DNA of 64,000 nucleotides. Origin: Sphingomonas swuensis (GTDB lineage: Bacteria > Pseudomonadota > Alphaproteobacteria > Sphingomonadales > Sphingomonadaceae). The translations under genes and the position numbers were made by a program. The DNA lies in contig NZ_BAABBQ010000001.1 of NCBI RefSeq assembly GCF_039538045.1, positions 642,001 to 706,000 on the forward strand, written 5' to 3'. Below, piece after piece: positions 18,191 through 35,488 of this stretch. The notes beneath the pieces were generated by a model. The model was given only the letters and a program-made list of their open reading frames with translations. It made no database searches and was not told the origin of the DNA. Every line of letters begins with the position of its first letter. Within the stretch, counting starts at the first letter, position 1.

Positions 18191-19162
18191 TTGCCAGACA
18201 CCACCACCATGCGCGCGGCCGTTCTTTCCGCGCCGCAGACGATCACCGTGTCCGAACTGCCGAAGAAGGAGCCGGGCGAAGGGCAGGTCCGGGTACGGCT
18301 GGAAGGGTGCGGCGTTTGCGCCTCGAACCTCGGTCCGTGGAGCGGCCCCGAGTGGCTGCAATATCCCGGTGAGCCGGGCGGGATGGGCCACGAGGGCTGG
18401 GGCACCATCGAGGCGGTCGGCCCGGGGGTCGAAGGTCTGGCGGTCGGCGACCGGATCGCGGCCTTGAGCTACAACAGCTACGCCAGCCATGATCTTGCCG
18501 ACGCAGACAAGGTGGTGAAGCTTCCGGAGGCGCTTGCCGGACAGCCCTTCCCGGGCGAGCCCTTGGGCTGTGCGTTCAACATCTTTCGCCGCGCCGACAT
18601 CAAGGCCGGGCAGACCGTCGCGATCGTCGGTATCGGTTTCCTCGGCGCGCTTCTGACCCGGCTCGCGACCGACGCGGGCGCGCGGGTCATCGCGATCAGC
18701 CGGCGTCACTACAGCCTGGAGGTCGCGCGCGAGTTCGGCGCGACCGAGACCATCCCGATGACCGATCACCACAAGATCATCGAGCAGGTCAAGGAGCTCA
18801 CCGGCGGCAAGTTCTGCGAGCGGGTGATCGAGGCGGTCGGCAAGCAGTGGCCGCTCGACCTCGCCGGCGAGCTTACCGCCGAGCGCGGCAAGCTGATCGT
18901 CGCCGGCTATCATCAGGACGGCCCGCGGACGGTCAACATGTGGCTCTGGAACTGGCGCGGGATCGACGTGATCAACGCGCACGAGCGCGACCCGCAGGTC
19001 TACATGGACGGGATCCGCGAGGCGGTCGACGCGGTCGCGAGCGGACGTCTCGACCCCAGCCCGCTCTACACCCATCGCTACAAGCTCGATGAACTGGCGC
19101 AGGCGCTCGACGCCACCCGCGACCGGCCGATGGGCTTCCTCAAGGCGATCATCGAACCATGA
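18191..19162 (+). CDS. Medium-chain zinc-type alcohol dehydrogenase-like protein
   Basis: A 323-residue MDR-superfamily oxidoreductase. The N-terminal GroES-like domain has CGVCASN (catalytic-zinc Cys) and GHEGWG (His-Glu). The four-cysteine structural zinc lobe of classic enzymes is missing. The Rossmann motif is near VGIGFLGALLTRL, and the coenzyme is uncertain. The TTG at 18191 is favoured by AAGGGGAG six bases upstream; the ATG at 18209 has no ribosome site but would suit the domain equally well. It overlaps the following Gfo/Idh gene by 4 bases (ATGA), so the two act in one unit, probably oxidising a sugar or cyclitol. Substrate unknown. Confidence 0.78.
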   Translation: MPDTTTMRAAVLSAPQTITVSELPKKEPGEGQVRVRLEGCGVCASNLGPWSGPEWLQYPGEPGGMGHEGWGTIEAVGPGVEGLAVGDRIAALSYNSYASHDLADADKVVKLPEALAGQPFPGEPLGCAFNIFRRADIKAGQTVAIVGIGFLGALLTRLATDAGARVIAISRRHYSLEVAREFGATETIPMTDHHKIIEQVKELTGGKFCERVIEAVGKQWPLDLAGELTAERGKLIVAGYHQDGPRTVNMWLWNWRGIDVINAHERDPQVYMDGIREAVDAVASGRLDPSPLYTHRYKLDELAQALDATRDRPMGFLKAIIEP

Positions 19163-20148
19163 GCGACAAGCCCCGGCTAGGCTTCCTCGGAATCGGCTGG
19201 ATCGGTCGCAACCGGATGGAAGCGATGCTCGGCACCGGCCTCGTCGAAGTCGCCGCGATCGCCGACCCTAGCCACGAAATGCGCGAGGAAGCGGCGGCGC
19301 TGGTGCCGGACGCGGTGGTTGCCGAAACGCTCGACGAGCTGCTGACGCAGGATCTCGACGGACTGGTCGTCGCAACCCCCTCGGCGCAGCATGCCGAGCA
19401 GTCGATCCGCGCGCTCGAGGCGGGACTCGCCGTCTTCTGCCAGAAGCCGCTCGGGCGGACCGCGGCGGAGGCCAGGGCTGTGGTCGATGCGGCAAGGGCG
19501 GCCGACAAGCTGCTCGGCGTCGATCTCAGCTACCGCTTCACAAACGGGATGCGGGCCATCCGCCGGGCGATCGCGTCGGGTGACCTCGGCCAGCCGTTCG
19601 CGGCCGACCTCGTCTTCCACAACGCCTATGGCCCGGGGAAGGACTGGTTCTTCGACCCCGCGCAGTCTGGCGGCGGCTGTGTCATCGACCTTGGCGTGCA
19701 CCTCGTCGACCTCGCCTTGTGGGCGATGGAGTGGCCCGAGGTGGTGAAGGTCGAGAGCCATCTGATGAGCGGCGGCAAGCCGCTGGCCGATGCGGCCACG
19801 ACCTGCGAGGATTATGCGGTCGCGACGCTCACGCTCGGCAATGGCGCGGTGGTCCGGCTGGCCTGCTCGTGGAAGCTGCCGGCGGGCAAGATGTGCGAGA
19901 TCGCCGCGGACTTCTACGGCACCGGCGGCGGCGGCCTGTTCCGCAATGTCGGCGGCAGCTACACCGACTTCGAGGCGTTCCGAACCGCCGGCACCGAGCG
20001 CTGGCATGCGGCCGAGCCCGATAGCGACTGGGGTGGCCGGGCGGCGGCGGACTGGGCCAGGCGGCTCGCCTCAGGCTCGGCGTTCGACCCCGAGGCAGAG
20101 CGGCTGGTCGAGGTCGCACGGGTCCTCGACGCCATCTACCAGCGCTAG
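19159..20148 (+). CDS. Gfo/Idh/MocA-family oxidoreductase
   Basis: A 329-residue NAD(P)-dependent sugar or inositol dehydrogenase. N-terminal Rossmann motif GFLGIGWIGRNRM is at about 8-20, followed by the family lysine motif CQKPLGR (in place of the usual E-K-P) and GGGCVIDLGVHLVDLALW, which holds the D-x-x-x-H motif of the active site. It is translationally coupled to the upstream dehydrogenase. Family members include myo- and scyllo-inositol dehydrogenases, relevant given the Ino1 and inositol-phosphatase genes about 12 kb away, but sugar 3-dehydrogenases are equally possible. Its last 78 bases overlap the opposite-strand gene at 20071. Confidence 0.85.
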   Translation: MSDKPRLGFLGIGWIGRNRMEAMLGTGLVEVAAIADPSHEMREEAAALVPDAVVAETLDELLTQDLDGLVVATPSAQHAEQSIRALEAGLAVFCQKPLGRTAAEARAVVDAARAADKLLGVDLSYRFTNGMRAIRRAIASGDLGQPFAADLVFHNAYGPGKDWFFDPAQSGGGCVIDLGVHLVDLALWAMEWPEVVKVESHLMSGGKPLADAATTCEDYAVATLTLGNGAVVRLACSWKLPAGKMCEIAADFYGTGGGGLFRNVGGSYTDFEAFRTAGTERWHAAEPDSDWGGRAAADWARRLASGSAFDPEAERLVEVARVLDAIYQR

Positions 20149-21723
20149 CTCGAAGCGGTGCGCGGCGGCGCGGTGACGCGCGGCCTCGTCGGAGCCGACC
20201 ATCGCTTCGCTCATCCGGTGCGCACCCAACCGGAAGGCGGCGTAGGCGATCCGGTAGAAGGCGAGGAGTTCGGGATCGCAGCCGAGCAGCTTCTCGAGGG
20301 CGGTGACCTCGGACCGGGCGAGGTCGAGCTCGATCGCGGCCGCCGCCACGTCCCAGGCGAGGTCCTGACAGCCAACGAGGTCGTGCGCCTGGTGATGGTC
20401 GAGCGCATCGGCCTTAAGGAGTTGACCGGACGGCAGACGGAGCCACTCGTGCGCAGCGAGCCTCCCGTCGATCGTCACCGGCCGAACCCTGGCTTGCAGC
20501 ACGTCTGCGGGCGGATTCCAGCGGGACAGAGCGGGCACGTTGCGCCGAACCATCGTGACCAGCTCGGCAAGCGACGCGCCGGGGCCCGCGGGAAGGGTGG
20601 CGCGGAGTGCGAGATAAGACGCGAGCTCATCGAGCGTCGGCTGCGTCGGGCTCGCCTCGGCATGCCAGCGCTGGACCAGCCAGCCGTGCGTCAGGCCGGC
20701 GACCTCGGGTCCGAAGCCGGTGCGGTGGAGCAAGCGGGCAAGGGCGAGTTTGCCCTCACCGATTGACCCTAGTCCCGCAAAGCGGACCAGCCACTCGACA
20801 CCGTCGGCGCGAACGAGGAACTTGGCGCGCTCCCAAGCAGGCGTGACCGGCGGCCAGGACCGCTCGTCGGCGCTCCACCGCGGGCGCCAGGCGCCGGCAA
20901 AGAGGTCATCCCAGCGGTCGATCGGCCCGGTAAGCTGCTCGACCCACGAACGCAGGCCGTCGATGCGGGCGACCGGGCGCTGCGCTTTGGCCCAGCGCGC
21001 GCAGTGGGCGGCGTCGGCCTCTGGGCCGAGATCGCCGTCGTGGCCGGGGAGGAAGGCGATGCGGTCGCGGGGCACGCCGCGGGCCTCGAGCCAGTCGGCG
21101 ACGCAGCCGAAGCTGCTTCCGGACAGGCCGGGCCCCTCGTCGACGATGACATAATGCGCCGGCCCCTCGAGCAGTTCGGCGGCCAGCCCCTCGTCGAGGC
21201 GAAGTTCGCGGCGGAAGGGATCGCCGGTCGGGCGCAGCGTCACGGGTCGAGGCGCCCCCAGCGCCGCCGCGGCAATGGCGGCGAGCCCCGCGCCAATGCT
21301 GCGCAGGCCGATCAGCCGTGGCCGCGCCTCGAGCGCAAGCATCCGTGCCGCCAGGCCATAGGCCTCGGGGTAGAGGGCGTAGAAGGCATAGCCTTCGGGC
21401 AGCCGGACTAGGACATTGTCGGGGAGAACGGGGATCGGCGGGATTGGCGGGGCAAGAGCGCCGGGACAGCCCAAGTCCCACGAGTGCATCAGCGCGCCGG
21501 CTTGATCCATCAGGGCGTTGAGGAGCGCGTCCTCCGCGGCACGACGCCGATCGATCCCGGCCGCCCGGAAGTCGCGGTCGGCGACGGCCTGGGCGAGTCC
21601 GGCGAGGGTGATGAAGCGGGCGCGCAGGCGGTCATGGTCAAGCCACCGGCCCTCGTCCGAGGCGAGCTCCTGCAGGCACCGGGCGGGGACGACCTCCTGC
21701 TCATGGTCGCCGTAGACCAGCAT
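20071..21723 (-). CDS. Two-part protein: phosphoribosyltransferase-like region plus possible kinase-fold C-terminus
   Basis: A 550-residue protein I do not recognise as a named family. Residues about 138-205 look like a type I phosphoribosyltransferase core: a loop LRSIGAGLAA, then hydrophobic residues and acidic VDEGPGLSGSSF at 194-205, resembling a PRPP-binding loop. Residues 300-470 contain KFLVRADGVEWLVRF and, at 435-460, LLKADALDHHQAHDLVG and QDLAWDVAAA. These faintly resemble the Asp-rich catalytic segment of aminoglycoside-phosphotransferase-like kinases. No membrane segment or signal peptide. It lies 4 bases after the UDP-glucuronate decarboxylase gene, last in the glycosylation operon. 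A phosphosugar or nucleotide-sugar role is plausible, but function is unknown. Confidence 0.6.
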   Translation of the reverse strand: MLVYGDHEQEVVPARCLQELASDEGRWLDHDRLRARFITLAGLAQAVADRDFRAAGIDRRRAAEDALLNALMDQAGALMHSWDLGCPGALAPPIPPIPVLPDNVLVRLPEGYAFYALYPEAYGLAARMLALEARPRLIGLRSIGAGLAAIAAAALGAPRPVTLRPTGDPFRRELRLDEGLAAELLEGPAHYVIVDEGPGLSGSSFGCVADWLEARGVPRDRIAFLPGHDGDLGPEADAAHCARWAKAQRPVARIDGLRSWVEQLTGPIDRWDDLFAGAWRPRWSADERSWPPVTPAWERAKFLVRADGVEWLVRFAGLGSIGEGKLALARLLHRTGFGPEVAGLTHGWLVQRWHAEASPTQPTLDELASYLALRATLPAGPGASLAELVTMVRRNVPALSRWNPPADVLQARVRPVTIDGRLAAHEWLRLPSGQLLKADALDHHQAHDLVGCQDLAWDVAAAAIELDLARSEVTALEKLLGCDPELLAFYRIAYAAFRLGAHRMSEAMVGSDEAARHRAAAHRFELALVDGVEDPCDLDQPLCLGVERRA

Positions 21724-21727
21724 GAGC

Positions 21728-22761
<1,034 letters not shown>

Positions 22762-22777
<16 letters not shown>

Positions 22778-23865
22778 CCTTCTCCGGCAAGGGCCGCCGT
22801 ATGTTTGCCAACCATGGCTTCCTCAAGATGGCGTTCGAGTTCGCCGGCCCGGACCGCCGACGTGTGCTCCGCCAGCGCCCTAACGCGTGCCGCCTCGCCG
22901 ATCGCGCGTGCCTGGGCGGGAGCGATGCCTTCGAGCGCGGCAACCACGTCCTCGGTCGTGCGTGCAAGCAATATCTCGCGGCCCGGCTCGAACAGCTGGT
23001 CGAGCCCGTCCCAGACATCGGAAATGACCGGGCAGCCGCACATCGCCGCTTCGAACAGTCGGACGCTCGGGCTCCATCCGGCCGCGATCATGTCGGCACG
23101 GGTGACGTTGAGCGTGAAGCGGCTGGCGGCATAGAAGTCGGGGTGCTCGGCCGGCGGGACATGCTCGATCCGCTCGACGTTGGCGGGCCATTCGATGTCG
23201 CCGGGGTAGAGCGGGCCGGCGACGCAGAAGCGCCGTTCGGGAAGCGCGCGCGCGGCGGCGCAAAGAAGCTTCTCGACCGTCGGCTGGCGATCCTCCGACC
23301 AGGTGCCGAGATAGGACAAATCCCAGCGGCTCGGCACGTCGAGCGGCCGGTAGATGGCGGGATCGGCCTGGCAGTAGAGCGCGCGGGCGCCGGGCGAACC
23401 CAGCTCGCGCTCGATGAAGCGCAGCGTGGGGCCTCCGGTGAAGCTCAGATAGACGTCGAAGCCGGGGATCAGTTCGGGGCTGAGATATTCGAAGTCGCCG
23501 CGAGCGAACTTGGCCAGCGTCACCGGCGTGTCGATGTCGTAGAAGGCCGTCACTCCGCGCGCGGTCTGCTGCACGAAACGACCGACGTCCACCCCTTGCG
23601 GCACGTAGGAGCCGACCATGACCGCGTCGGCGCGCGCGATCTCGCCTTGCCAGCGTTCGAGGTCCTTGAGATCCGAATAGAATGAGAGCCGGCAATAGTC
23701 GGGATCGGCAAGGTCGCGCTGGCTGGCGTACCAGGGCACGTCGCGCTCGAGGAACAGGATGTCGTGCCCGCGCGTGGCGAACTCGCCGAGCAGACCGCGG
23801 AAGGTGGTCGCGTGGCCGTTGCCCCAGGAGGAGCTCAGCGACAGGCCGAGGACGACGAGCTTCAT
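22762..23865 (-). CDS. CgeB-like glycosyltransferase 1
   Basis: A 367-residue GT-B-type glycosyltransferase resembling the CgeB/Glyco_trans_1_2 group. It starts MKLVVLGLSLSSSWGNGHAT. The donor-binding half includes FTLNVTRADMIAAGWSPSVRLFEAAMCGCPVIS with the E-A-A-x-C-G-C-P core. The ATG at 23865 is fixed by homology to its neighbour and by a 4-base overlap with the preceding stop. It is 3' in a chain of six genes joined by 4-base overlaps, ahead of the UDP-xylose synthase. No signal peptide, so cytoplasmic. Acceptor and sugar unknown. Confidence 0.83.
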
Positions 23866-24956
23866 GCCGCCACCAGCTCGCGCTTGGCGGCAAGCTCGGC
23901 GCGGAGCACCCGGTCGGCCTCGACCCCGCGATGCGCATAGGTGTGCTCGGCCAGCACCCGGGCGAGCGCGGCGTCGCCGATCGCTCGGGCGCGCTCGGGC
24001 GTGAGGCGGGCAAGGTGATCGGCGACATCCTGTCCGTCGCGCGCGACCAGCACTTCCTTCTCGGGCTCGAGGAACTGCTCGATGCCTTCCCACGCGTCGG
24101 TGATCAGGCAGGCGGCGGCGCCGGCGGCCTCGAAGACGCGGGTGGCGGGCGAGAAGCCGACGTTGGCCATGCTGTCGCGAGCGACGTTGAGGACCGCTGC
24201 GGGCGAGCAGTTGAAGGCGTTGTGGTCGGCGGTCCCGACATGACCGACGGCGTGGACATTGGCCGGCATGCCCTTGCCCGCCCAGCCGTTGCCGCCGAGC
24301 AGGAACCTCTTGTCCGGGCTGACTTCTGCTGCGCGGAGGAAGAACTCCTCGACCCGGGCCTCACGATCGGGAAGACGGTTGGCGAGAAATCCGAGATCGG
24401 CGGCGAAGCGATCCTCGCGCGGCACCGGATGGTGGGTGGCGGGATCGAGGGCATTGTAGATGGGCACGCACTTCCTCGCGCCGAAGCCCTCGTAAGCGGA
24501 GATGACCGGCGGACCGCCGCCATAGGTCAGCACGAGGTCGAACTCCGGCAGGCGGCGGCGCAGCGGATGGTCGGGCGCCCCGGCCAATTCCTCGAGCGTC
24601 GCCGCGGCATCGACGTCCCAATAGACCTTGAGCGCGTTCGGGGCTGCCCGGTCGAGCACGCCTTCGGTCAGCTCGTCGTCGAACACTCCGACGCCACTCG
24701 CCTTGACCGCGATGTCGGCGGCGGCGGCCTCGTCGAGCACTCGCCGGCAGGCATCGGGAGTCGCGTCATAGACCACCGAGCGGGCATAGGCGGGCGGGTC
24801 GATGTCCCTGTGCTGCTGCCGCTCGAAGGCGTCTGGCTCGTAGAAGGTGATGGCGTGGCCGTGACCCGCAAGCTCCTTGAGAATGCCGCGATAGTAGGTC
24901 GCCGCGCCGTTCCAGTAGGCGCTGAGAAGGGAGGAGCCGTAGAAGGCGATGTTCAT
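23862..24956 (-). CDS. CgeB-like glycosyltransferase 2
   Basis: A 364-residue paralogue of the following gene, starting MNIAFYGSSLLSAYWNGAAT. Conserved C-terminal segment is LNVARDSMANVGFSPATRVFEAAGAAACLIT, with WEGIEQFLEPEKEVLVARD as in the other CgeB-like protein. A long open frame runs upstream to 25331, but that part is read over the next gene and is rejected; ATG 24956 gives a 4-base overlap. CgeB of Bacillus is linked to glycosylation of the spore surface; in Gram-negatives the role of these enzymes is not established. Confidence 0.82.
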   Translation of the reverse strand: MNIAFYGSSLLSAYWNGAATYYRGILKELAGHGHAITFYEPDAFERQQHRDIDPPAYARSVVYDATPDACRRVLDEAAAADIAVKASGVGVFDDELTEGVLDRAAPNALKVYWDVDAAATLEELAGAPDHPLRRRLPEFDLVLTYGGGPPVISAYEGFGARKCVPIYNALDPATHHPVPREDRFAADLGFLANRLPDREARVEEFFLRAAEVSPDKRFLLGGNGWAGKGMPANVHAVGHVGTADHNAFNCSPAAVLNVARDSMANVGFSPATRVFEAAGAAACLITDAWEGIEQFLEPEKEVLVARDGQDVADHLARLTPERARAIGDAALARVLAEHTYAHRGVEADRVLRAELAAKRELVAA

Positions 24957-26059
24957 GCGTCGACCTTGTCGGTGAGGGTGGCGACGATGCCGAGCAGCTC
25001 GTCGACCCGGTGGGCGCAGCTGTGGCGGGCGCGGATGGTGGCGAGACCCTTGGCGGCGAGGCGCTCGCGAAGGGCGGGATCGTCGCGCAGGGCGGTGAGG
25101 TGGCGGGTCATCTCGGCACCGTCGCGCGCGACAAGATAGTCCTCGCCGGGAGTGAACAGGCCCTCGCTGTCGTCCCAAGGCGCGCTGACCAAGGGGATCC
25201 CGCAGGCGAGCGCCTCGAACACGCGGATGGTCGGGATGCCGGGGAGCACCTCGCGATAGAAGCGGCGGGGGACGTGGACCGTGGTGAGCGCCCTCGCGAA
25301 CACCTCCGGCGCGGCGGCGTTGGGGAGCCATCCAGCGAATCTGATGCCGTAGCGGGCCAGCGTCGCGAGCGCCTCGGGTGGGTAGCGGACGCCATGGATG
25401 GTGAGCGGAAGACCGGCCTGCGCGGCGGCGCGGAAGAGATATTCCTCGAGCTCGGCCGAGCGCTCGCCGTCGCCCCAGTTGCCGATCCAGACCAGTCCCT
25501 CGCGCTGCTGTTCGCGAACCGGCGGATGGAACAGGCGCGTGTCGGCGGCCTCGTGCCAGGTCCAGACCCGGCCTTCCCAGCCCCAGCGACGGTAGACCTC
25601 GCTCAGCGTCTCGCCGAACGCCAGCACCCCGTCATAGCCCGACAGGTCGAAGGCGCGGATCGCCTGCGGATCGCTGACCGCGCGGTGGTGCGTGTCGTGG
25701 AAGAGGAGGGTGAAGCGGGCGCCAGCCTTGCGCAGCGCTCCGATCGCGGCGACCAGCGCGGGCTCGTTCCACTCATGGACGATGACTAGGTCGGAATCGC
25801 CGACGAGCGCGTCGGGGGCGGCATCCGGAGCGAAGGTCTCGATCACGTCCTGAAGGTCGGGGTAGGCGGCGCGCCAGGCGTCGAGACCCTGCTCGCCGCC
25901 GTCCTGGCGGAGGTTGTCGAGGCTCCAATTGCGCCCCGGCTCGAGCGCGCGGACATGGTGGCCGCGGGCCTTCAGCTCGCGCAGGATGCCGCGCAGGAAG
26001 TGCGCGTTGCCGTGATTCCAGCAGCTGCGGAGCGAATGCGTGAAATAGGCGATCCTCAC
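24953..26059 (-). CDS. Glycosyltransferase (CgeB/GT-B-like)
   Basis: A 368-residue GT-B enzyme beginning (GTG)RIAYFTHSLRSCWNHGNAHF, of the same start type as the two CgeB-like genes downstream. The donor-site half contains LPGIPTIRVFEALACGIPLVSAPW followed by GEDYLVARD. GTG 26059 was chosen because it overlaps the stop of the upstream gene in GTGA and matches the start pattern of its paralogues; the long frame upstream is not coding. Probably works in series with its neighbours on one oligosaccharide or glycolipid. Confidence 0.8.
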   Translation of the reverse strand: MRIAYFTHSLRSCWNHGNAHFLRGILRELKARGHHVRALEPGRNWSLDNLRQDGGEQGLDAWRAAYPDLQDVIETFAPDAAPDALVGDSDLVIVHEWNEPALVAAIGALRKAGARFTLLFHDTHHRAVSDPQAIRAFDLSGYDGVLAFGETLSEVYRRWGWEGRVWTWHEAADTRLFHPPVREQQREGLVWIGNWGDGERSAELEEYLFRAAAQAGLPLTIHGVRYPPEALATLARYGIRFAGWLPNAAAPEVFARALTTVHVPRRFYREVLPGIPTIRVFEALACGIPLVSAPWDDSEGLFTPGEDYLVARDGAEMTRHLTALRDDPALRERLAAKGLATIRARHSCAHRVDELLGIVATLTDKVDA

Positions 26060-27147: not shown

Positions 27148-28229
27148 GCCGGAACCCTGAGGCGGACCGTCTCGCCCTCGAGCGGGAGCCCGCGCTCGGC
27201 GGCAAGCCAGTGGGCAAGGGTGGCGACTCCATCCTTCCACCCGCGGGCGGGCGCGAGCCCGAGCTCGCTCGCAATCCGGCGGGTATCGGCAACGAAGTAG
27301 CGCTGGTCGCCCGCGCGCCAGTCGGAATAGCGGACGTCGGGCGTGCGGCCGGTGAGCGCCTCGATATGGCGCATCAGCTGGCGGAGGCTGACCGCATTGG
27401 CGGGGCCACCACCAAGGTTGAAGGCGCGCCCGGCAATCCGGTCGATCTGCTTCCACGCGGCCATGTAGGCGTCGACCGCGTCGCCGACGTCGAGGATGTC
27501 GCGGACCTGCGCGCCGTCGCCATAAAGGGTGATGGTCTCGCCCTCGAGCGCGCGGATCAGGAAGTGGGCGACCCAGCCCTGGTCCTCGGTCCCCATCTGC
27601 CGCTGGCCATAGATGCAGCTCATCCGGATGACCGCGGCGGGCAGGTCGAAGCTGCGCGCATAGTCGAGCACATATTGGTCGGCGGCGCCCTTCGAGCAGC
27701 CGTAGGGCGTGTGGAAGTCGAGCGGACGCGCTTCGCCGATGCCGTGGCAGCGAACGTCGGGATCGACCGGCTCGTAGCGCTCGCCCTCGAGCCGGAACTC
27801 GAGGTCGGCGAGATCGCCGTAGACCTTATTGGTCGAGGCGAAGATCAGCGGCGTTCGGCGACCGGCGGTGCGCAGCGCATCGAGCAGATGCAGCGTCCCG
27901 CGGACGTTGATGTCGAAATCCTCGCGAGGATCGACGAGGCTGGTCGTGACCGCGACCTGCGCCGCCATGTGGAAGACGGCTTCGGCCTCGCGCGCGGCGG
28001 CGGCGAGGCTGTCCTCGTCGCGGATATCGCCGCGGGTGAAGCTGATCCTGTCACCGTGGCGCTGCTGGAGCCAGGCGAGATTGCGCTCGACCCCCGGACG
28101 CGACAGGGCGTCGAACAGGTGGACCTCATGGCCCTTGGAGGCGAGGCGGTCGGCGATATTGCTGCCGATGAAGCCCGCGCCGCCGGTGACGAGGACCGGC
28201 TTCGATCGAAGCAGCGCAGGGCCGCTCAC
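27144..28229 (-). CDS. NAD-dependent nucleotide-sugar epimerase (CDP-paratose 2-epimerase-like)
   Basis: A 361-residue extended SDR. N-terminal VTGGAGFIGSNIADRL, then STNKVYGD and YGCSKGAADQY (catalytic Tyr-x-x-x-Lys), and RMSCIYGQRQMGTEDQGW, which is typical of the CDP-tyvelose/CDP-paratose 2-epimerase branch. GTG 28229 overlaps the preceding stop (GTGA). The actual nucleotide sugar is uncertain because the other genes of CDP-dideoxysugar synthesis are not present in this window. It could act as a C2 or C4 epimerase on a UDP or GDP sugar. Confidence 0.8.
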   Translation of the reverse strand: MSGPALLRSKPVLVTGGAGFIGSNIADRLASKGHEVHLFDALSRPGVERNLAWLQQRHGDRISFTRGDIRDEDSLAAAAREAEAVFHMAAQVAVTTSLVDPREDFDINVRGTLHLLDALRTAGRRTPLIFASTNKVYGDLADLEFRLEGERYEPVDPDVRCHGIGEARPLDFHTPYGCSKGAADQYVLDYARSFDLPAAVIRMSCIYGQRQMGTEDQGWVAHFLIRALEGETITLYGDGAQVRDILDVGDAVDAYMAAWKQIDRIAGRAFNLGGGPANAVSLRQLMRHIEALTGRTPDVRYSDWRAGDQRYFVADTRRIASELGLAPARGWKDGVATLAHWLAAERGLPLEGETVRLRVPA

Positions 28230-29341
28230 GCGACCAGCCCCCGCGCCTCGAGTTCCGCCCGGGCGGCGTCGACCCGGTCGACCGCGGTCTGGCTGGCGAC
28301 CCACTGGGCGAGTTCCGCAAGACCCTCCTCGAAGTCCTTGGTCGCCTCGAAGCCAAGCTGGTCGGCGGCGAGCGAGGTGTCGCAGAAGCAGTGGCGGATG
28401 TCGCCGATCCGGCCCTTGCCGGCAATCTCTGGGTCGAGACCCTTCTTGCCCATCGCGCGGGCAAGGCTCTGGGCGACCTCGCGCACCGAGCGATCCTGGC
28501 CCGATCCGATGTTGAAGACCCCGCCCGCGGCCTGCGGCAGTTCGAGCGCGTCGGCGAAGGCCCGGGCGACGTCCCCGACATGGACGAAGTCGCGGCGCTG
28601 CTCGCCGTCCTCGAAGATTACCGGCTTCTGGTCGTTGAGCAGGCGCGAGGAGAAGATGGCGAGGACGCCGGTGTAGGGATTGGAGAGCGCCTGGCCGGGG
28701 CCGTAGACGTTGAACAGGCGGAGGCACACGCCCTCCATGCCGTAGGCGCCGGTCATGATGAGCGTGGTGCGCTCCTGCACATATTTGCCGAGCGCGTAGA
28801 TGGAGGCGAGGTCGGGCCGCTTCCATTCGGGAGTGGGAACGGGCTGGAGCGGCCGCCCCTCGGCATCGACCGGTTCCCAGCTCTGGCCGTCGCCGGCACC
28901 GGCGCTACGAACCGCGTCCTGCACGAGGGTGCCGTCGGCATCGCGGTAGAGGCCCTCGCCGTAGATGCTCATCGACGAGGCGGTGACCACACGGCGGACC
29001 GGACGATCGATCAATTTCTCCATAAGTACCGCGGTGCCGACGTCGTTGACGCTGGTGTAGCGCTCGACCGCATACATCGACTGGCCGACACCGACCTCGG
29101 CGGCGAGGTTGATGACGCTGTCGGTGCCCTGGAGCGCCTTGGTCACGACGTCGCCGTTGCGGACGTCACCAACGATCAGTTCGACGTCCGAGGGAAGCAT
29201 CTTGGAGCCGTCCACCTCGCCGTGAACCTGCTCGATCAGGGCGTCGAGGACACGAACGCGGTGGCCGCGCTCGAGGAGTTCGCGGCAGACGGAGCGACCG
29301 ATGAAGCCGGCACCGCCGGTGACCAAGACTGTCTCGCCCAC
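28226..29341 (-). CDS. NAD-dependent nucleotide-sugar epimerase/dehydratase
   Basis: A 371-residue extended SDR, the first gene of the minus-strand glycan operon. VTGGAGFIGRSVCRELL starts the Rossmann fold; the active site has ASSMSIYGEG and IYALGKYVQE (Tyr-x-x-x-Lys), then LRLFNVYGPGQALSNPYTGV. This pattern is found in dTDP-L-rhamnose 4-epimerase-like and UDP-glucose 4-epimerase-like proteins. ATG 29341. It is divergent from the histidine-phosphatase gene across a 246-base region. The sugar it modifies is not identifiable by sequence reading. Confidence 0.8.
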   Translation of the reverse strand: MGETVLVTGGAGFIGRSVCRELLERGHRVRVLDALIEQVHGEVDGSKMLPSDVELIVGDVRNGDVVTKALQGTDSVINLAAEVGVGQSMYAVERYTSVNDVGTAVLMEKLIDRPVRRVVTASSMSIYGEGLYRDADGTLVQDAVRSAGAGDGQSWEPVDAEGRPLQPVPTPEWKRPDLASIYALGKYVQERTTLIMTGAYGMEGVCLRLFNVYGPGQALSNPYTGVLAIFSSRLLNDQKPVIFEDGEQRRDFVHVGDVARAFADALELPQAAGGVFNIGSGQDRSVREVAQSLARAMGKKGLDPEIAGKGRIGDIRHCFCDTSLAADQLGFEATKDFEEGLAELAQWVASQTAVDRVDAARAELEARGLVA

Positions 29342-29587
29342 GCTTCCATTCTCCCCGCAAGGCCTTATGCCGGTTTAGCCGAAGTCCCGGCTTCTGAATG
29401 AAGCTTCTTCTTGTTTGTTCCCCGTCATGGCGGCTTCTTTGTCGCGGTGGTGCAACGATTTAGACCTCATCGATCGCTGACTTGCGCCATCTTCAACTAG
29501 TCGTTCCGGTACCTGCAACGATTCTTTGTTGCCGGAGGAACAAAGCTTTTCCCTTGCTGTTGGGCAGGCGAAACACGGGGAGACGGC
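29342..29587. promoter_or_regulatory. Divergent promoter region of the two glycan/inositol operons
   Basis: Noticeably AT-richer than its surroundings and with no supported gene. It contains the direct repeat TGCAACGATT at 29451-29460 and 29514-29523, and an inverted repeat CTTTGTT (29524-29530) and AACAAAG (29539-29545) followed by CTTTT, about 40 bases before the plus-strand start. The direct repeats are candidate activator sites; the inverted repeat could be an operator or attenuator. No confident sigma-70 boxes are assigned. Both operons must start here, so they are probably co-regulated. Confidence 0.5.
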
Positions 29588-30157
29588 GTGCCTTCGGTCC
29601 ACCTGCTACGCCATGGGGCGCATGACGATGTCGGGAAGCGGCTGACGGGCCGTTTGCCTGATCGCGGCCTGACCGAGGCGGGACGGGGGCAGGCACTTGA
29701 CGCCGCCGCCCGGCTCGACCGCTCGCCGCCGTCCGCCATCTACGCCAGCCCGCGCCGCCGCACGCGCGAAACCGCCGCGATCGTCGCCGAACGCTTCGGC
29801 CTTGCCGTCATGGAAGCCCCTGCGCTCGACGAAATCGACTTCGGTGAATGGGCTGGCCGCGACTTCGCCGAGCTCGATCGAGACCCGCGCTGGTTCGCTT
29901 GGAATGCCGAGCGCGACACGGCCCGCTGCCCCGGTGGCGAAACTCAGCGCGAGGCGCAGGCGCGTGCGCTCGCCTTCACCTTCGAGGCCTCTGCGCGCCA
30001 TGGCTCGACGCCGCTGCTGGTCACCCATTGCGACATCGTCCGTTCGCTGGTCTGCTGGTCCGAGCGCCGGTCGCTCGGCGACATCCACGCCGTTCGCTGC
30101 GATCCCGGTGCCCTCGTCACACTCGATCTCGCCGCAACGGCGAGGGTGGCCGCCTGA
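29588..30157 (+). CDS. Histidine phosphatase-family protein
   Basis: A 189-residue phosphoglycerate-mutase-like phosphatase. The phosphohistidine motif LLRHGAH is at 6-12; ASPRRRTRET follows at about 53, then EIDFGEWAGRD, and VTHCDIVRSL near residue 145 holds the second histidine. GTG 29588 has GGGGAG five bases upstream. Members remove phosphate from sugars, alpha-ribazole phosphate or other small molecules. As first gene of the plus-strand operon, followed by a methyltransferase with a TGATG overlap, it may dephosphorylate a pathway intermediate. Specific substrate unknown. Confidence 0.82.
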   Translation: MPSVHLLRHGAHDDVGKRLTGRLPDRGLTEAGRGQALDAAARLDRSPPSAIYASPRRRTRETAAIVAERFGLAVMEAPALDEIDFGEWAGRDFAELDRDPRWFAWNAERDTARCPGGETQREAQARALAFTFEASARHGSTPLLVTHCDIVRSLVCWSERRSLGDIHAVRCDPGALVTLDLAATARVAA

Positions 30158-30936
30158 TGCTCAAGACGGGCGAGCCTGTCCTCGACAAGGCACAGATCGA
30201 GCGAAGGGTTGCGGAGCTCGGGCCGTGGTTCCACGATCTCGACCTCGATGGCGTGCGGACCGCTCCCGACCACTTCCTGTGGGGCTATCCCGAGAACAAG
30301 TACAAGCGCTTCCGCCACGTCATTCCCGAGGACCTCTCCGGCAAGAGCGTGCTCGACATCGGCTGCAACGCCGGCTTCTACAGCTTCGAGATGAAGCGGC
30401 GCGGCGCCGCGCGGGTGCTCGGGATCGACCATGACGAGCGCTATCTCGAGCAGGCTCGCTTCGCCGCCGGCGTGTTCGGGCTGACCGACATCGAGTTTCG
30501 CCGTGGCGAAGTCTGGGACGTCGGCGCGCTCGGCGAACGATTTGATGTCGTGGTGTTCATGGGCGTGCTCTACCACCTGCGCCATCCGCTGCTCGCGCTC
30601 GACCTCATCCGAGAGCATGTCGCCGACGACCTGCTGCTGTTCCAGTCGCTGCAGGCGGGGAGCAAGGGCATGTACCGCCCCGACCCCGACTATGATTTCT
30701 TCGATGGCCTCGGCGAATTCGACCGACCCGAGTGGCCGCGGATGCATTTCATCGAGCAGCGCTATGCCGGCGACCCGACCAACTGGTGGGTGCCGAACGA
30801 GGCCGCAAGCGCGGGCATGCTGCGCGCCGCCGGCTTCGACATCGTCGAGCATCCCGACACCGACGTCTTTCTCTGCCGTGCCGCCGCCGCTCCGGCCGGT
30901 GCCGCGGTCTATCCCGCGAAAGGAAGCCTCGCTTGA
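30157..30936 (+). CDS. SAM-dependent methyltransferase (resembles TIGR04290 family)
   Basis: A 259-residue class I methyltransferase. SAM-binding motif VLDIGCNAGFYSFEM is near residue 63 and VVVFMGVLYHLRHP near residue 130; GLGEFDRPEWPRMHFIEQRY and NWWVPN suggest a carbohydrate-related subfamily such as TIGR04290. The ATG overlaps the preceding stop by 1 base, and the stop overlaps the next gene's TTG start. Probably O-methylates a sugar or cyclitol in the product of this cluster; the family assignment is from memory of its pattern and should be checked. Confidence 0.75.
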   Translation: MLKTGEPVLDKAQIERRVAELGPWFHDLDLDGVRTAPDHFLWGYPENKYKRFRHVIPEDLSGKSVLDIGCNAGFYSFEMKRRGAARVLGIDHDERYLEQARFAAGVFGLTDIEFRRGEVWDVGALGERFDVVVFMGVLYHLRHPLLALDLIREHVADDLLLFQSLQAGSKGMYRPDPDYDFFDGLGEFDRPEWPRMHFIEQRYAGDPTNWWVPNEAASAGMLRAAGFDIVEHPDTDVFLCRAAAAPAGAAVYPAKGSLA

Positions 30937-31865
30937 TCGAAGCCGCGATGATCTGGAACGAGCCCAACAACAAGTCGCATTGGGATCCGCAGATCGACCC
31001 TGACTGGTCGAAGTTCGCCGAGATGGGCAAGCTTGCGGCGCGCGCGATCCACGACGTCAACCCGCAGGTCAAACGGGTGCTCGGCGGGATCTCGCCGATC
31101 GATCCGCAATATATCCAGCGGCTCGCGGGGCACGGCCTGATCGAGGAACTCGACGTGATCGCGGTCCACGGCTTCCCGCTCGACTGGAACCTGTGGAACA
31201 TCAACGAATGGCCCCAGCGGCTTGACGAGATCCGCGCGGTGGTGCCCGATCATGAGCTGTGGGTGACCGAGGTGGGCGTCGGGAGTTTCGGCGCCGAGGA
31301 AGTGCAGGAGTTCGGGGTCAAGCGGACGGCCGAGCTGCTGATCGGCAAGGTGCCGAGGGTCTTCTGGTATTCGCTCTACGACCTCCCGCAGGCGTGGGGC
31401 GCGACCACCCGGCACAAGGAGGCCGAGGGCTCTTCTTACTACCGTCATTTCTACATGGGCCTGATCAAGGAAGACGGTACGCCCAAGCTCGGCCTCAAGG
31501 CGTTCGAGCCCTATGCTGGCGACCTCGGGCTGATGCAGTGGTTCCACTATCAGGACCCGCGCCTCGACGATGCCGTGGCCTGGCTCAAGCGCCTCGGAGT
31601 GAAGCATCTCCGCACCGGCCTCAGCTGGGCGGACAGCTTCCGCCCGGACGCGCTCGGCTGGTTCGACCGGCAGATGGAAGCGCTCGAGGACTTCGACGTC
31701 ACCGTCACCTTCTGCTTCACCCCCGAGCATCTAGGGATCGAGCCGCACCACACCAGTCCGCCTCGCGATCCGCAGCAGTTCGCCGACTTCTGCGCGCAGA
31801 TGATCGAACGTTACGCGCCGGTGGCCACCAACGACGCCAGGCCCGCGCTGGCCGCCGCAGAATAA
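30933..31865 (+). CDS. GH39-like (clan GH-A) hydrolase with apparently circularly permuted barrel
   Basis: A 310-residue protein. Residues 7-14 (IWNEPNNK) carry the GH-A acid/base Glu10 of strand beta-4, and Glu113 in LWVTEVGVG is the beta-7 nucleophile position; FWYSLYDL at 144-151 and [15 protein letters not shown] at 177-191 match beta-8 and its exit. What follows (about 197-295), [32 protein letters not shown] and [12 protein letters not shown], looks like beta-1 to beta-3, which normally precede the W-N-E-P motif. TTG 30933 overlaps the upstream stop with AGGAAG before it; ATG 30948 is the alternative. No signal peptide, so it is cytoplasmic and perhaps a biosynthetic or trimming enzyme rather than a secreted one. 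Confidence 0.7.
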
Positions 31866-31876
31866 CAGGAACAGAG

Positions 31877-33004
31877 ATGATGGAGCCGCAGATCAACATC
31901 GCCATTGCCGGGATCGGCAACTGCGCCAGCAGCTTGGTGCAGGGCATCGCTTACTATCAGAATGGCGGTTCGAACGAGCAGATCGGCCTCATGCACTGGG
32001 ATCTCGGCGGCTACCGTCCGCGGCACCTGCAGGTGGTCGCGGCATGGGACGTCGATGCGCGCAAGGTCGGGCGCGACGTCAACGAGGCGATCTTCGCGCA
32101 ACCGAACAACACCCAGGTGTTCTGCGACCATGTCCCGCCGACCGGCGCGGTCGTCCGGATGGGCAAGCGCCTCGACGGGGTTGCGCCGCACATGGCCGAC
32201 TATCCCGCCGAGCGCAGCTTCATGCTCGCAGACGGACAGCGGGAGCCGAGCCAGGAGGAGGTCGTCCGGGTGCTGCGCGAGACCAACGCGCACGTGCTGA
32301 TGAACTATCTTCCCGTGGGCAGCCAGCAAGCCACCGAATTCTATGCCGAATGCGCGCTCGAGGCGGGGGTTGCCTTCGTCAACTGCATCCCGGTGTTTAT
32401 CGCGTCCGACGAGACTTGGGCGAAGCGCTTCCGCGACAAGGGCGTCCCGATCATCGGAGACGACATCAAGGCGCAGCTCGGGGCGACCATCGTCCACCGC
32501 GTGCTGACGGACCTCTTCGCCAAGCGCGGCGTCCGGCTCGACCGGACCTACCAGCTCAACACCGGTGGCAACACCGACTTCCTCAACATGCTCGAGCGCT
32601 CGCGCCTCAAGCAGAAGAAGGAGTCGAAGACCGAGGCCGTCCAGGCGGTCGCCGAGCGCCGGCTCGAGGACGAGAACATCCATGTCGGCCCTTCAGATTA
32701 TGTCGCCTGGCAGAAGGACAACAAGGTCTGCTTCCTTCGGATGGAAGGGCGGATGTTCGGCGACGTGCCCTTGAACCTCGAGCTTCGACTCTCGGTCGAG
32801 GATTCGCCCAACAGCGCCGGGGTGGCGATCGACATGATCCGCTGCGCCAAGCTCGCGCTCGATCGCGGCGAGGGCGGGCCGGTGGAGGCGCCGGCGGCTT
32901 TCTTCTGCAAGCATCCGCCGCAGCAGATGACCGACGACGAGGCTCACATCGCCACCGAAGCGTTCATTCTCGGTGAGCCAGCTCCCAAGTCACGAGTCCA
33001 CTAG
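31877..33004 (+). CDS. ino1: Inositol-3-phosphate synthase
   Basis: Converts glucose-6-phosphate to 1D-myo-inositol 3-phosphate with NAD+ as catalytic cofactor. The 375-residue length fits the bacterial form. Key stretches are [19 protein letters not shown] (NAD loop), [52 protein letters not shown] and KKESKTEAV, all characteristic of the family. Two starts, ATG 31877 and 31880, share AGGA just upstream. It sits between the permuted hydrolase and DUF1003 genes, upstream of an inositol-monophosphatase-like gene. Inositol synthesis is uncommon in alphaproteobacteria outside special lipids and solutes. Confidence 0.94.
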
Positions 33005-33530
33005 CAACACTCCGACGGTCCAGCTCGCTGACGGGCTGGCCTCGGCGCTGACCCGCAACATCGCGGCGCTGGCCGAGCGGCGCAGGCTCGAGGACGAGCG
33101 GGCGACCGCCGACCAGCGGATTGCGCGAACCATCACCCGCTTTGCCGGGTCGATGTGGTTCGTCTACCTGCATGCCGCAGTGGTGCTGGCGTGGGTCGCG
33201 ATCAATCTTGGCTGGACCGGATTTGCGCCGTTCGACGAGACGTTCGTGATCCTCGCCACGGTCGCGTCGGTCGAGGCCATTTTCATCTCCACCTTCATCC
33301 TCATCGCGCAGAACCGCGCCGCGGAGGCGGCCGATCGGCGTGCCGACCTCGATCTCCAGATCAGCCTCCTGTCCGAGCACGAGGTGACCCACCTCATCCG
33401 TCTGCTCACGGCCATCGCCGAGAAGCTTGGGGTCGAGGAGGCACGCAGTCCCGAACTCGAGGAGCTCAAGCGCAACGTCGCGCCCGAGGCGGTGCTCGAA
33501 CGGCTCGAGGAAGAGAGCGACGATCCTTGA
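32973..33530 (+). CDS. DUF1003 membrane protein
   Basis: A 185-residue protein of the DUF1003 family with two hydrophobic segments ([17 protein letters not shown] and [20 protein letters not shown]) around residues 65-110. A cytoplasmic coiled part with [20 protein letters not shown] follows. GTG 32973 is used; it overlaps the Ino1 gene by 32 bases, and the first 25 residues are low-complexity so the real start could be a little later. Function unknown; members are often found with transporters and stress genes. Confidence 0.75.
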
Positions 33531-33581
33531 TGTCGTCCCGGCGAGGTCGGCATCCTGTCCGAGATCCCGGTCTTCGCCGCG

Positions 33582-34361
33582 ATGATGGACTGGGTTATGG
33601 CCCTCGCCATGATCCTTCCCTTCCTTCACCGGCTTTCCACCACCGCCCGCGGCGTGACCCTCGGCGCACCCGTTCCGAGCGCAGACAACAAGGCTGGTGA
33701 GGGCGCCTTCGACCCCGTCACCGAGATCGACCGCGTGGCCGAGCGCGTCCTGCGCGGCGAGATCGAAGCGGCCTTTCCCGAGGACGGGATCGAGGGCGAG
33801 GAATATGGACTCATCCGCGGCGAGGCCCGGCGCCGCTGGCTGCTTGACCCCGTCGACGGCACCCGCGCGCTCATCTGCGGACTGCCAAGCTGGACCACGC
33901 TTGTCGCGCTGGTCGAGGATGGCGAGCCGACCCACGGCTTCATCGACAGCCCGGCGCTCGACGAACTGATGACCGGAACTCCCGAGGGGGCGCTGCTGAA
34001 CGGTCGTCCAGTGCGCGTCTCTTCGTGCACCAGCCTCGCCGAGGCGCGGCTGTCGACCACCGATCCCTATCTTTTCGCCGGGCGCGAATCCGAAGCGTTC
34101 GAGCGGGTGCGGAGCGGCGTACGCCTCGCCCGCTACGGCCTCGACGCGCTCGCCTATGCGCGGCTTGCCGCCGGTCACCTCGATCTCGTCGTCGAAAGCG
34201 GCCTCAAGCCGCACGACTGGGCCGCGCTGGTGCCGGTGGTGCGTGGCGCGGGCGGAGTGGTCGGCGACTGGCGCGGGGGAACGGACTTCGCCGGCGGCGC
34301 GATCGTCGCCGCGTCGACGCAGGCTTTGTTCGACGAGGCGGTATCTTTGTTGAACGGCTAG
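33582..34361 (+). CDS. Inositol-monophosphatase-family phosphatase
   Basis: A 259-residue Mg2+-dependent phosphatase. The metal-binding motifs are all present: EGEEYG, LLDPVDGTRAL and the C-terminal KPHDWAALVPVVRGAGG, in their expected order. The N-terminal part resembles HisN-type histidinol-phosphatases as well as SuhB. It lies 577 bases after ino1 in the same direction, so the simplest reading is that it releases free inositol from Ino1's product. The start is unsure: ATG 33582, 33585 or 33597 lack strong ribosome sites. The alternative role is histidinol phosphate cleavage, but no his genes are nearby. Confidence 0.8.
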   Translation: MMDWVMALAMILPFLHRLSTTARGVTLGAPVPSADNKAGEGAFDPVTEIDRVAERVLRGEIEAAFPEDGIEGEEYGLIRGEARRRWLLDPVDGTRALICGLPSWTTLVALVEDGEPTHGFIDSPALDELMTGTPEGALLNGRPVRVSSCTSLAEARLSTTDPYLFAGRESEAFERVRSGVRLARYGLDALAYARLAAGHLDLVVESGLKPHDWAALVPVVRGAGGVVGDWRGGTDFAGGAIVAASTQALFDEAVSLLNG

Positions 34362-34396: not shown

Positions 34397-35488
34397 GTGC
34401 CGGGTCTTCAGCTTCGTGGCGTGTCCAAAGCGTTCAAGGGTACCGCGGTGCTAGACGCGGTGGATCTCGACGTCGGCAGCCGCGAGTTCATCGCATTTCT
34501 CGGCCCGTCGGGAAGCGGCAAGACGACGCTGCTGCGGATCATCGCCGGGCTGGAAACGGCGGACAGCGGCGAAGTGGTCCTTGACGACCGGCGGATCGAC
34601 GTCCTCGGTCCGGGCGAGCGCGACGTCGCCATGGTGTTCCAGTCCTACGCGCTCTACCCGCACATGTCGGTGCGCGAGAACATGGCGTTCGGCCTCCGCA
34701 ACGCGAAGGTCGCACCCAACGAGATCGAGCGCCTGATCGCCGATGCCGCCCGGGTGCTCGAGATCGAGCCCTTGCTCGAGCGCAAGCCGGCGCAGCTTTC
34801 GGGCGGGCAGCGGCAACGGGTCGCGATCGGTCGCGCGATCGTCAAGAAGCCGCGCCTGTTCCTGCTCGACGAGCCGCTCTCCAACCTCGACGCGGCGCTT
34901 CGCCTGCGGACCCGGGTCGAGCTTGCCCAGCTTCGCCAGCGGGTCGAGGCGGGGGTGATTATGGTCACCCACGATCAGGCCGAGGCGATGACGCTGGCCG
35001 ACCGCATCGTCGTCTTCCATGACCGCCAGATCCAGCAGGTCGCGGCGCCGATGGAGATATATCTTCGCCCCGCCAACAAGTTCGTCGCGCAGTTCGTCGG
35101 ATCGCCGGCCATGACCATCCTGCCCGTCAAGCTCGTCGATGGCGGAGAGCATGCCGCGGTGGCGCTCGGCAACGGCGCACGCATCGAAACAATGGTCCCC
35201 CGGGCAAGCCTTCCGGCCGGCGGTCCGCTCGAGATCGGGCTGCGCTCCGAACATGTCCGGGTTGCTTCCGACGGCACCGCAGCACTGGAGGCGGAGGTGG
35301 TGCTAGTCGAACGCCTCGGCGATCGCAGCCTCGTCTACGCGCGCCTCGCCGACGGGGGCGAGGTCACCGCCGAGGACAAGGGCACCAGCGTGCTCAAGGC
35401 GGGCGAGCGCGTCGGCCTCGCCATCGACGGCGCTTCGGCGCACCTCTTCGGTCCCGACGGCACCGGCTTCCACCGGGCCGGCGCATGA
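34397..35488 (+). CDS. Carbohydrate ABC importer, ATP-binding subunit (UgpC/MalK type)
   Basis: A 363-residue ATPase. Walker [10 protein letters not shown] is at about 37-45, the Q-loop [14 protein letters not shown], the signature LSGGQRQR and Walker B LFLLDEP follow. After residue 240 there is a TOBE-type regulatory domain ([10 protein letters not shown]). GTG 34397 has the family start [14 protein letters not shown]; no clear ribosome site precedes it. It is followed by two permeases and a lipoprotein binding protein with overlaps, so the importer is complete. Substrate is unknown; the position suggests a product or precursor of the inositol/glycan pathway. Confidence 0.92.

Follow-up and report, generated by a model that had tools for sequence, protein, structure and literature searches.

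A conserved bacterial gene cluster with EcfG-type promoter sequences and a permuted glycosidase, a candidate source of a cytosolic inositol glycoside

A conserved cluster and its closest described relatives

General stress control in alphaproteobacteria provides the closest described parallel to the gene cluster considered here. In Sphingomonas melonis, the published EcfG motif is GGAAC-N17-20-GTT, enriched less than 100 bp from starts, and EcfG-dependent trehalose genes form a soluble sugar pathway under general-stress control (PMC6599016). For Sinorhizobium meliloti, PMC6180224 ties RpoE2 to osmotic, desiccation and starvation stress and states that most RpoE2-dependent genes still have no predicted function. 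We analyzed a 64,000-nucleotide stretch (the window) of the 2.79-Mb genome of Sphingomonas swuensis, in which two divergent operons and two oxidoreductase genes to their left combine nucleoside diphosphate (NDP)-sugar enzymes, glycosyltransferases, a permuted glycoside hydrolase (GH) and the inositol-3-phosphate synthase Ino1. On balance, we lean towards reading these genes as a patchily distributed conserved cluster that is likely under the general stress response and makes a cytosolic inositol glycoside with a short, likely methylated, pentose-containing chain.

Like members of the EcfG/PhyR (RpoE2) regulon, the cluster has a promoter sequence whose letters, spacing and distance from the start codon match the published S. 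melonis motif; unlike them, its regulation is predicted from sequence, and its beta- and acidobacterial counterparts lack the motif. What sets it apart from the trehalose genes is its inositol module, along with three NDP-sugar enzymes, four glycosyltransferases and a set of tailoring enzymes. The GH is similar in sequence to glycoside hydrolase family 39 (GH39; PslG and beta-xylosidases) and keeps both expected glutamates, but it is permuted, has no signal peptide visible by hydropathy and is tied to Ino1, while an unpermuted relative is fused to a 2-epimerase-like short-chain dehydrogenase/reductase (SDR). Ino1 matches the mycothiol-type M. tuberculosis enzyme 1gr0 over its full length at 418.5 bits, against 199 bits for the five-membered-cyclitol-phosphate synthase 6k96; however, it reaches 443.8 bits against a cut-off of 638 for the TIGR03450 equivalog, and its host is no actinobacterium. 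Similarly, the second SDR (SDR2) is by far closest to the CDP-tyvelose (paratose) 2-epimerases 9rl0 and 1orr (270 and 265 bits; next best 122), but no CDP-sugar pathway gene was recognized in its cluster.

No description of the cluster was found in the literature searched, in agreement with the initial annotation, which could match it to no characterized pathway. None of the SMb202xx tags appears in the main texts of two S. meliloti regulon papers, and SMb20231, an ABC binding protein, is named in one S. meliloti paper. The existence of NCBI family models for two cluster proteins, TIGR04290 and TIGR04295, indicates that parts have already been noticed; in the literature searched, TIGR04295 carries only a generic radical SAM name.

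All genes listed in the initial annotation are open reading frames, with coordinates exact or off by a few codons, and their closest named relatives are from Sphingomonas. From 29341 to 20071, the minus strand encodes SDR1, SDR2, a GT4 glycosyltransferase, three CgeB-type glycosyltransferases (CgeB1, CgeB2 and CgeB3), a UDP-glucuronate decarboxylase/UDP-xylose synthase (UXS) and a 550-residue protein, with overlaps or gaps of about 14 nt at most. On the plus strand, a histidine phosphatase (HisPhos), a methyltransferase (MT), the GH and Ino1 follow one another from 29588 to 33004 with overlaps or gaps of no more than 11 nt, and a DUF1003 gene comes next. Counted by family, there are three NAD-dependent SDRs and four glycosyltransferases, of which one is a PF00534-type GT4 and the other three are PF13524 (CgeB-type). 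The closest solved structures to SDR1 are assorted epimerase/dehydratase family proteins (142 bits) and the closest to the MT is EvdMO1, while CgeB2 has no solved relative by sequence. Profile and structure-sequence matches uphold the families given earlier to the two epimerases, the four glycosyltransferases and the UDP-xylose synthase-like enzyme, and the frames of both operons and of the left-end oxidoreductases are real. The gene set observed in the initial annotation is therefore confirmed, whereas its interpretation is partly supported; the EcfG-type promoters, the existence of two alternative cluster types, one with Ino1 and one with a GH-SDR2 fusion, and HisPhos as the better candidate for inositol phosphate were absent from it.

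A scan of named genomes with the 550-residue protein returned 34 loci, from Sphingomonas, Phenylobacterium, other Caulobacteraceae, Sinorhizobium, Devosia, Microvirga, Variovorax, Schlegelella, an Acidobacteria gp7 metagenome-assembled genome (MAG), Myxococcus and others. Further genes of the window's cluster lie beside it in 29 of these; the exceptions are L060 (Pyxidicoccus), L062 (Myxococcus), L066 and the short contigs L070 and L072, where L060 and L072 are excluded as having DUF1003 alone (raw count, 31/34). Cluster genes are co-located in Alphaproteobacteria, Betaproteobacteria and an Acidobacteria MAG, in an order that is shuffled between loci, although the block SDR1-SDR2-GT4-CgeB1-2-3-UXS is frequently intact. 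Among 385 alphaproteobacterial genomes (the window's own counted; orthologue threshold E ≤ 1e-40), the GH occurs in 8 and a CgeB2 orthologue in 16, and all 8 fall within the 16 (hypergeometric 1e-12, not corrected for kinship). Co-location is far beyond chance, and the neighborhood comparison called for in the initial annotation found the genes conserved together as one coherent cluster. The TIGR04290 family is above cut-off in 14 of 398 Pseudomonadota genomes, again counting the window's own.

Copies lie on plasmids in S. meliloti ABS7 (pSymB), Azospirillum (p2), Sphingobium yanoikuyae (pKN1) and Paracoccus yeei (pTT13-5), and S. meliloti 1021 also carries the cluster on pSymB, at about 243-264 kb. 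In a tree of 44 SDR2 sequences, the Acidobacteria sequence groups beside Betaproteobacteria. From this grouping and the plasmid copies, we conclude that the cluster has probably spread horizontally. At least 4 of 14 core genes occur at 59 loci, and a 61-locus set used below also counts tailoring genes. Per-locus co-occurrence counts omit L041, L082, L083 and the window itself, and pairs of near-identical loci remain in the gene-presence, co-occurrence, multi-transmembrane (multi-TM) and neighbor counts.

EcfG-type promoter sequences

The predicted regulation draws on an EcfG-type promoter sequence at the head of the plus operon and a weaker one at the head of the minus operon. The pattern GGAAC-N16/17-[CT]GTT has a single match when both strands of the window are searched; it lies at 29537, and 26 nt separate its end from the first codon of HisPhos. 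The GGAACAAAGCTT...CTGTT box also precedes the phosphatase in Sphingomonas (L044-L046, L075), and an identical or similar box lies ahead of Ino1 in Phenylobacterium (L051, L063), at L055 and in Devosia (L064, L073). In Sinorhizobium, SDR1 is preceded by another sequence that fits this pattern, and DUF1003 by yet another (L053, L078). The minus-operon box deviates at its −10 part, with ATT instead of GTT, and this GGAAC-N17-ATT form recurs 52-79 nt ahead of SDR1 at L044, L045, L046 and L075.

We assessed the S. melonis motif across 139 operon-start regions from 52 alphaproteobacterial loci and 18 regions from 7 loci outside the class, omitting L032, L041, L054, L058, L078 and L082 as near-duplicates or overlaps, and L083 and L101-L103 as loci from other searches. 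GGAAC-N17-20-GTT was present in 49 of the 139 regions, corresponding to 37 of the 52 loci, and a strict form in 31 regions (28 loci), compared with 0/18 regions and 0/7 loci outside Alphaproteobacteria. Matches depended sharply on spacing, with 41 at 17 nt and 8 at 18 nt but 0-4 at every other spacing from 8 to 27, and 87 letter-permuted motifs matched a mean of 0.77 and a maximum of 7 regions. An earlier count, made before de-duplication and before L084-L100 were included, had given 29/136 starts and 26/50 loci against a shuffle mean of 0.49. The window's genome encodes NepR (PF18557, 40.6 bits, cut-off 25.7), the only protein of the regulatory system searched for. At L031, L033, L034 and L036, a gene of one family adjoins the cluster; its L031 member (15138-16241, with a frame start possibly set too far upstream) scores above cut-off for PhyR_sigma2 and for sigma-70 regions 2 and 4, and such a neighbor fits stress control.

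Glycosidase permutation, Ino1 and the phosphatases

Compared with PslG, a profile of 19 GH sequences aligns in two pieces of swapped order, with profile positions 200-297 on PslG 25-132 and 3-165 on PslG 132-302; the match has an E value of 4e-6 for the whole sequence, while the pieces alone are weak (4.8 and 0.005). Seven loci encode an unpermuted GH39-like relative fused to the SDR2 N terminus (five checked by BLAST), and these allow a direct comparison. Against the L084 fusion, the window GH yields two swapped high-scoring segment pairs (114 and 49.7 bits), whereas its rotated sequence yields a single one of 154 bits over 294 positions, and 129-140 bits against the other four fusions. Swapped matches that become one upon rotation identify the GH, by alignment, as a natural circular permutation, so that the term "permuted glycosidase" of the initial annotation proved apt. 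Two glutamates, E10 and E113, lie in the WNEPNN and TEVG motifs; both are conserved without exception across the 19 sequences and presumably form the expected pair of catalytic acid/base and nucleophile, roles assigned by analogy. No Pfam family is above cut-off for the window GH: Glyco_hydro_39 is missed at 14.8 bits against 26, with weak matches in 6 of the 19 relatives, and 18 of the 19 match the glycosyl hydrolase catalytic core at E < 1.

The form of the GH tracks the presence of Ino1. Ino1 is found in 7 of 8 genomes with the permuted form (the exception being G527) versus 36 of 385 overall (p 3e-7). Among the 14 CgeB2 genomes with either form, it is present in 7/8 with the permuted GH versus 0/6 with the fusion (p 0.002, not kinship-corrected, with three of the six fusion genomes sharing a genus); two CgeB2 genomes with neither form, G457 with Ino1 and G518 without it, are both about 82-83% complete. 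All seven fusion loci lack Ino1 and HisPhos, and Ino1 is missing genome-wide in all seven cases, while the TIGR04290 MT and UXS are each retained in 7/7. Conversely, Ino1 is seen at 38 of 46 permuted-form loci, and of the eight others, L044-L046, L065 and L097 are truncated near the gene, with Ino1 lying just beyond the truncation in the case of L097. This association suggests that the GH acts at the sugar-inositol junction, and retention of the MT at Ino1-less loci suggests that it likely methylates the sugar part. In the SDR2 tree, the fused/free label requires two changes: strongly supported branching places Sinorhizobium, with a free SDR2, a permuted GH and Ino1, among the fusion sequences, which suggests that one glycosidase form was exchanged for the other in some lineage.

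All 40 of 40 Ino1 loci examined hold a phosphatase, which is HisPhos at 31, a DSP/PTP-type protein at 12, and both at 3. Since HisPhos co-varies with Ino1, being absent from all seven fusion loci, it appears to serve Ino1 and would be a better candidate for inositol phosphate than the IMPase-fold gene that follows DUF1003. The latter, designated an inositol phosphatase in the initial annotation, is HisN-like (histidinol-phosphatase, 239.1 bits, cut-off 275.15) and has no tblastn match at E 1e-8 in loci L031-L100, and that designation is not upheld. The PTP-type gene lies 3-56 nt ahead of the 550-residue gene at 15 of 17 loci, two of which, in Pyxidicoccus (L060 9265-11809) and Myxococcus (L062 9317-11800), have no Ino1 or glycan gene. 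The two may form their own unit, with the DSP/PTP-type phosphatase serving the 550-residue protein.

Proposed product, alternatives and neighboring genes

In the inositol glycoside pathway that we favor, an EcfG sigma factor would likely turn on HisPhos-MT-GH-Ino1, and probably the opposite operon too, as judged by motif match. Going by family function, Ino1 would convert glucose-6-phosphate to inositol-3-phosphate, from which HisPhos likely strips the phosphate, and UXS would supply UDP-xylose by decarboxylating UDP-glucuronate. SDR2 would epimerize C2 of an NDP-sugar and SDR1 another carbon, and GT4 and the three CgeB-type transferases could then extend inositol by up to four sugars. The TIGR04290 enzyme likely methylates the sugar part, and the permuted GH likely acts where sugar and inositol are joined, by trimming, editing or transferring the sugar, as its link with Ino1 implies. 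Where present, the Zn-dependent dehydrogenase (ADH) and the GFO/IDH/MocA oxidoreductase (GFO) might oxidize and then re-reduce inositol to another stereoisomer; they are paired in 21 loci, with ADH lacking a full GFO in 1 cut locus, and the closest structures to GFO are DgpA and 1,5-anhydrofructose reductase. As no exporter was seen, the product would stay in the cell, presumably as a stress protectant that likely aids survival of drying or salt. A UDP-glucose-dehydrogenase-type family lies beside the cluster in 4 loci (L064, the one scanned, L068, L071 and L073); UDP-glucose dehydrogenase is the usual source of UDP-glucuronate and would feed UXS.

A more specific version of this proposal is speculative, and we hold it only tentatively: the product in Alphaproteobacteria could be a general-stress cytosolic inositol oligoglycoside of a new metabolite class, assembled by the four glycosyltransferases from UDP-xylose and C2-epimerized sugars. 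The permuted GH39, evolved for inositol, could then be the synthase or editor of the inositol-sugar bond, taking over from a glycosidase-epimerase fusion, the ancestral state, in lineages that switch to inositol. Confirmation of the favored pathway would bring to light a new stress metabolite of soil and plant-associated bacteria, as well as a natural example of circular permutation and domain separation going with a change of acceptor. Because S. meliloti 1021 carries a complete-looking pathway with a general-stress promoter on pSymB, the product can be sought at once.

Table 1 Features of the cluster and adjoining genes in the window.
Feature	Position	Strand	Basis or remark
Zn-dependent dehydrogenase (ADH), candidate of inositol-redox pair	18191..19162	+	NCBIfam second-best IolM, below cut-off
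GFO/IDH/MocA oxidoreductase (GFO), partner of ADH	19159..20148	+	NCBIfam best IolG, below cut-off
550-residue protein, phosphoribosyltransferase-like + kinase-like	20071..21723	-	Motif reading only
UDP-glucuronate decarboxylase/UDP-xylose synthase (UXS)	21728..22747	-	347 bits to UDP-glucuronate decarboxylase 1 structures, next family 152
CgeB-type glycosyltransferase 3	22762..23865	-	PF13524, 138.6 bits
CgeB-type glycosyltransferase 2	23862..24956	-	PF13524, 128.0 bits
CgeB-type glycosyltransferase 1	24953..26059	-	PF13524, 128.2 bits
GT4 glycosyltransferase	26056..27147	-	PF00534/PF13439
SDR2, NDP-sugar 2-epimerase-like	27144..28229	-	Closest solved structures CDP-tyvelose 2-epimerases
SDR1, NDP-sugar epimerase-like	28226..29341	-	Pfam Epimerase
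Weaker EcfG-like sequence GGAAC-N17-ATT	29397..29421	-	Precedes minus operon, 55 nt ahead of SDR1
EcfG-type promoter sequence GGAAC-N17-GTT	29537..29561	+	Precedes HisPhos-MT-GH-Ino1
Histidine phosphatase (HisPhos), candidate inositol-phosphate phosphatase	29588..30157	+	PF00300
TIGR04290 methyltransferase (MT)	30157..30936	+	356.6 bits, cut-off 300
Circularly permuted GH39-like glycoside hydrolase (GH)	30933..31865	+	Profile and rotation alignments
Ino1, inositol-3-phosphate synthase	31877..33004	+	PF01658; full-length match to 1gr0
DUF1003 membrane protein	32973..33530	+	PF06210, 93.5 bits; overlaps Ino1
IMPase-fold, HisN-like gene	33582..34361	+	Best score histidinol-phosphatase, below cut-off
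Sugar-type ABC importer (MalK/UgpC-like ATPase, two permeases, binding protein from about 37198)	34397..38502		After HisN-like gene

Several observations weigh against the inositol glycoside reading. The glycan genes occur without Ino1 in 7 loci, indicating that inositol is not the sole acceptor, and Ino1 is also missing at L049 and L069, which have kilobases of flank, and from genome G527 (locus L098). The pairing of the PTP-type gene with the 550-residue gene makes its tie to Ino1 doubtful, such that the 40/40 phosphatase count is weaker than it looks. Both members of the redox pair score far under cut-off (ADH, IolM at 88 bits versus 450; GFO, IolG at 93 bits versus 355), and the 550-residue protein has no Pfam, NCBIfam or PDB match. 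On the regulatory side, the strict motif is missing in 24 and the looser one in 15 of the 52 alphaproteobacterial loci, implying that stress control is not universal, and its absence from the beta- and acidobacterial loci implies that these are controlled otherwise. Moreover, reading the regions backwards does not give a clean control, as it still finds the looser motif 33 times and the strict one 13 times; such matches are to be expected of regions that divergent operons have in common. In 13 loci (for example, L081 20626-23063; the others are L035, L044, L049, L053, L058, L059, L061, L064, L073, L074, L078 and L082), genes for a polysaccharide pyruvyltransferase and for an FrhB-like (F420 hydrogenase beta) protein occur as a pair, which is typical of exported glycans. 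More broadly, the product and function are predictions, and the donors, acceptors and linkages named above are guesses.

That pair is one reason to consider an exported or envelope-bound oligosaccharide, such as an exopolysaccharide repeat, a lipopolysaccharide decoration or a spore- or cyst-like coat, with flippase and polymerase encoded elsewhere. The CgeB-type transferases (PF13524) and the relationship of the GH to PslG, whose gene sits in an exopolysaccharide cluster, point the same way. However, in a hydropathy-based survey of the 61 loci with at least 4 cluster or tailoring genes, no multi-TM frame lies inside the cluster at 60, the exception being an Nramp gene in the Acidobacteria locus, and no polymerase, flippase or ABC exporter was seen inside any of them. 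A further 13 multi-TM frames lie within 2.5 kb outside the clusters. Of the 14 multi-TM genes, the ten scanned comprise three Nramp, two MFS, a Na/H exchanger, a BCCT, an amino-acid permease, a ZIP and one unmatched protein, with no polysaccharide flippase or polymerase among them. The window's core enzymes have at most one hydrophobic segment each, and the absence of polymerase, flippase and export genes noted in the initial annotation holds for the window's cluster and extends to the related loci. The GH has no visible signal peptide, and Ino1 is not known as a part of O-antigen or capsule clusters. We therefore judge export unlikely.

An inositol glycolipid, in which a CDP-alcohol transferase encoded elsewhere joins inositol phosphate to a lipid before glycosylation, would also account for Ino1, and the genome yields three above-cut-off matches to CDP-alcohol phosphatidyltransferase, one of them weak. 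Such transferases match in 14/14 control genomes as well and hence say little for this option, which we regard as quite unlikely. A phosphatase at 40/40 Ino1 loci fits free inositol better, and no lipid gene was recognized among ten recurrent neighbor families scanned (not all families were annotated). Thus, of the small glycosylated inositol product, lipid or solute, put forward in the initial annotation, the inositol and pentose chemistry (Ino1, UXS) is retained and the lipid option loses ground. A hopanoid cyclitol ether was rejected on the ground that the cluster is present in S. meliloti, which is not known to synthesize hopanoids; rhizopine, which involves different genes, was rejected too.

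The 550-residue protein raises another alternative, a cyclitol natural product of antibiotic- or signal-like character that bears a ribosyl or phosphoribosyl group, modeled on butirosin O-ribosylation, in which this protein would act as phosphoribosyltransferase or kinase and a phosphatase would strip the phosphate. Its VDEGPG.SG motif resembles a PRPP loop and, like the C-terminal K.D..H..H.L.G.QD..W motif, is kept in 24 relatives, one of which matches Pribosyltran at E 0.32. The PTP-type gene directly ahead of it at 15/17 loci, the resemblance of HisPhos to alpha-ribazole phosphatase (104 bits, cut-off 163), and the radical SAM, methyl- and pyruvyltransferase tailoring in relatives are compatible with such a product. 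Still, the 550-residue gene is found in many but not all clusters, HisPhos occurs at many Ino1 loci without it, the protein occurs without the cluster at L060, L062 and L066, and no exporter recurs inside the loci, making this very unlikely in our view. In Devosia aurantiaca, the 550-residue gene is apparently split into two frames (L073 10001-11673).

Finally, the GH, the inositol-dehydrogenase-like ADH and GFO, and the sugar ABC importer adjoining in the window could be taken to mean that the cluster degrades imported plant inositol glycosides or xylosides, and a ugpC-type ATPase also adjoins the cluster on ABS7 pSymB. We find this hardly credible, as Ino1, three NDP-sugar enzymes and four glycosyltransferases are biosynthetic and, at E 1e-8, nothing at the other loci matches either of the importer's permeases or its binding protein. 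The importer ATPase matches at 8 loci, with a best score of 206 bits at L099. The IMPase-fold gene and the importer were accordingly rejected as cluster members, the IMPase, permeases and binding protein being unmatched elsewhere.

Other neighbors recur to differing extents. The DUF1003 gene adjoins 9 related clusters. Nramp genes stand beside unrelated clusters (L049 5018-6355, L069 8460-9827, L097 5103-6410, L031 and L033), three identified by Pfam and two by clustering, and Mn-catalase and ZIP genes near the Sphingobium copy hint at a metal or oxidative-stress context.

Tailoring genes also vary between loci. A B12-binding radical SAM protein (TIGR04295; L079 10714-12021), usually placed between SDR2 and GT4, a position without a gene in the window, recurs at L038-L041, L084-L087, L089-L092, L094, L095, L097 and L100 and marks another tailoring variant. 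A further variant has an NTP_transferase-type gene beside the MT, mostly with a second CgeB3-like transferase (L031-L034, L036, L038, L039, L069, L092 and L098).

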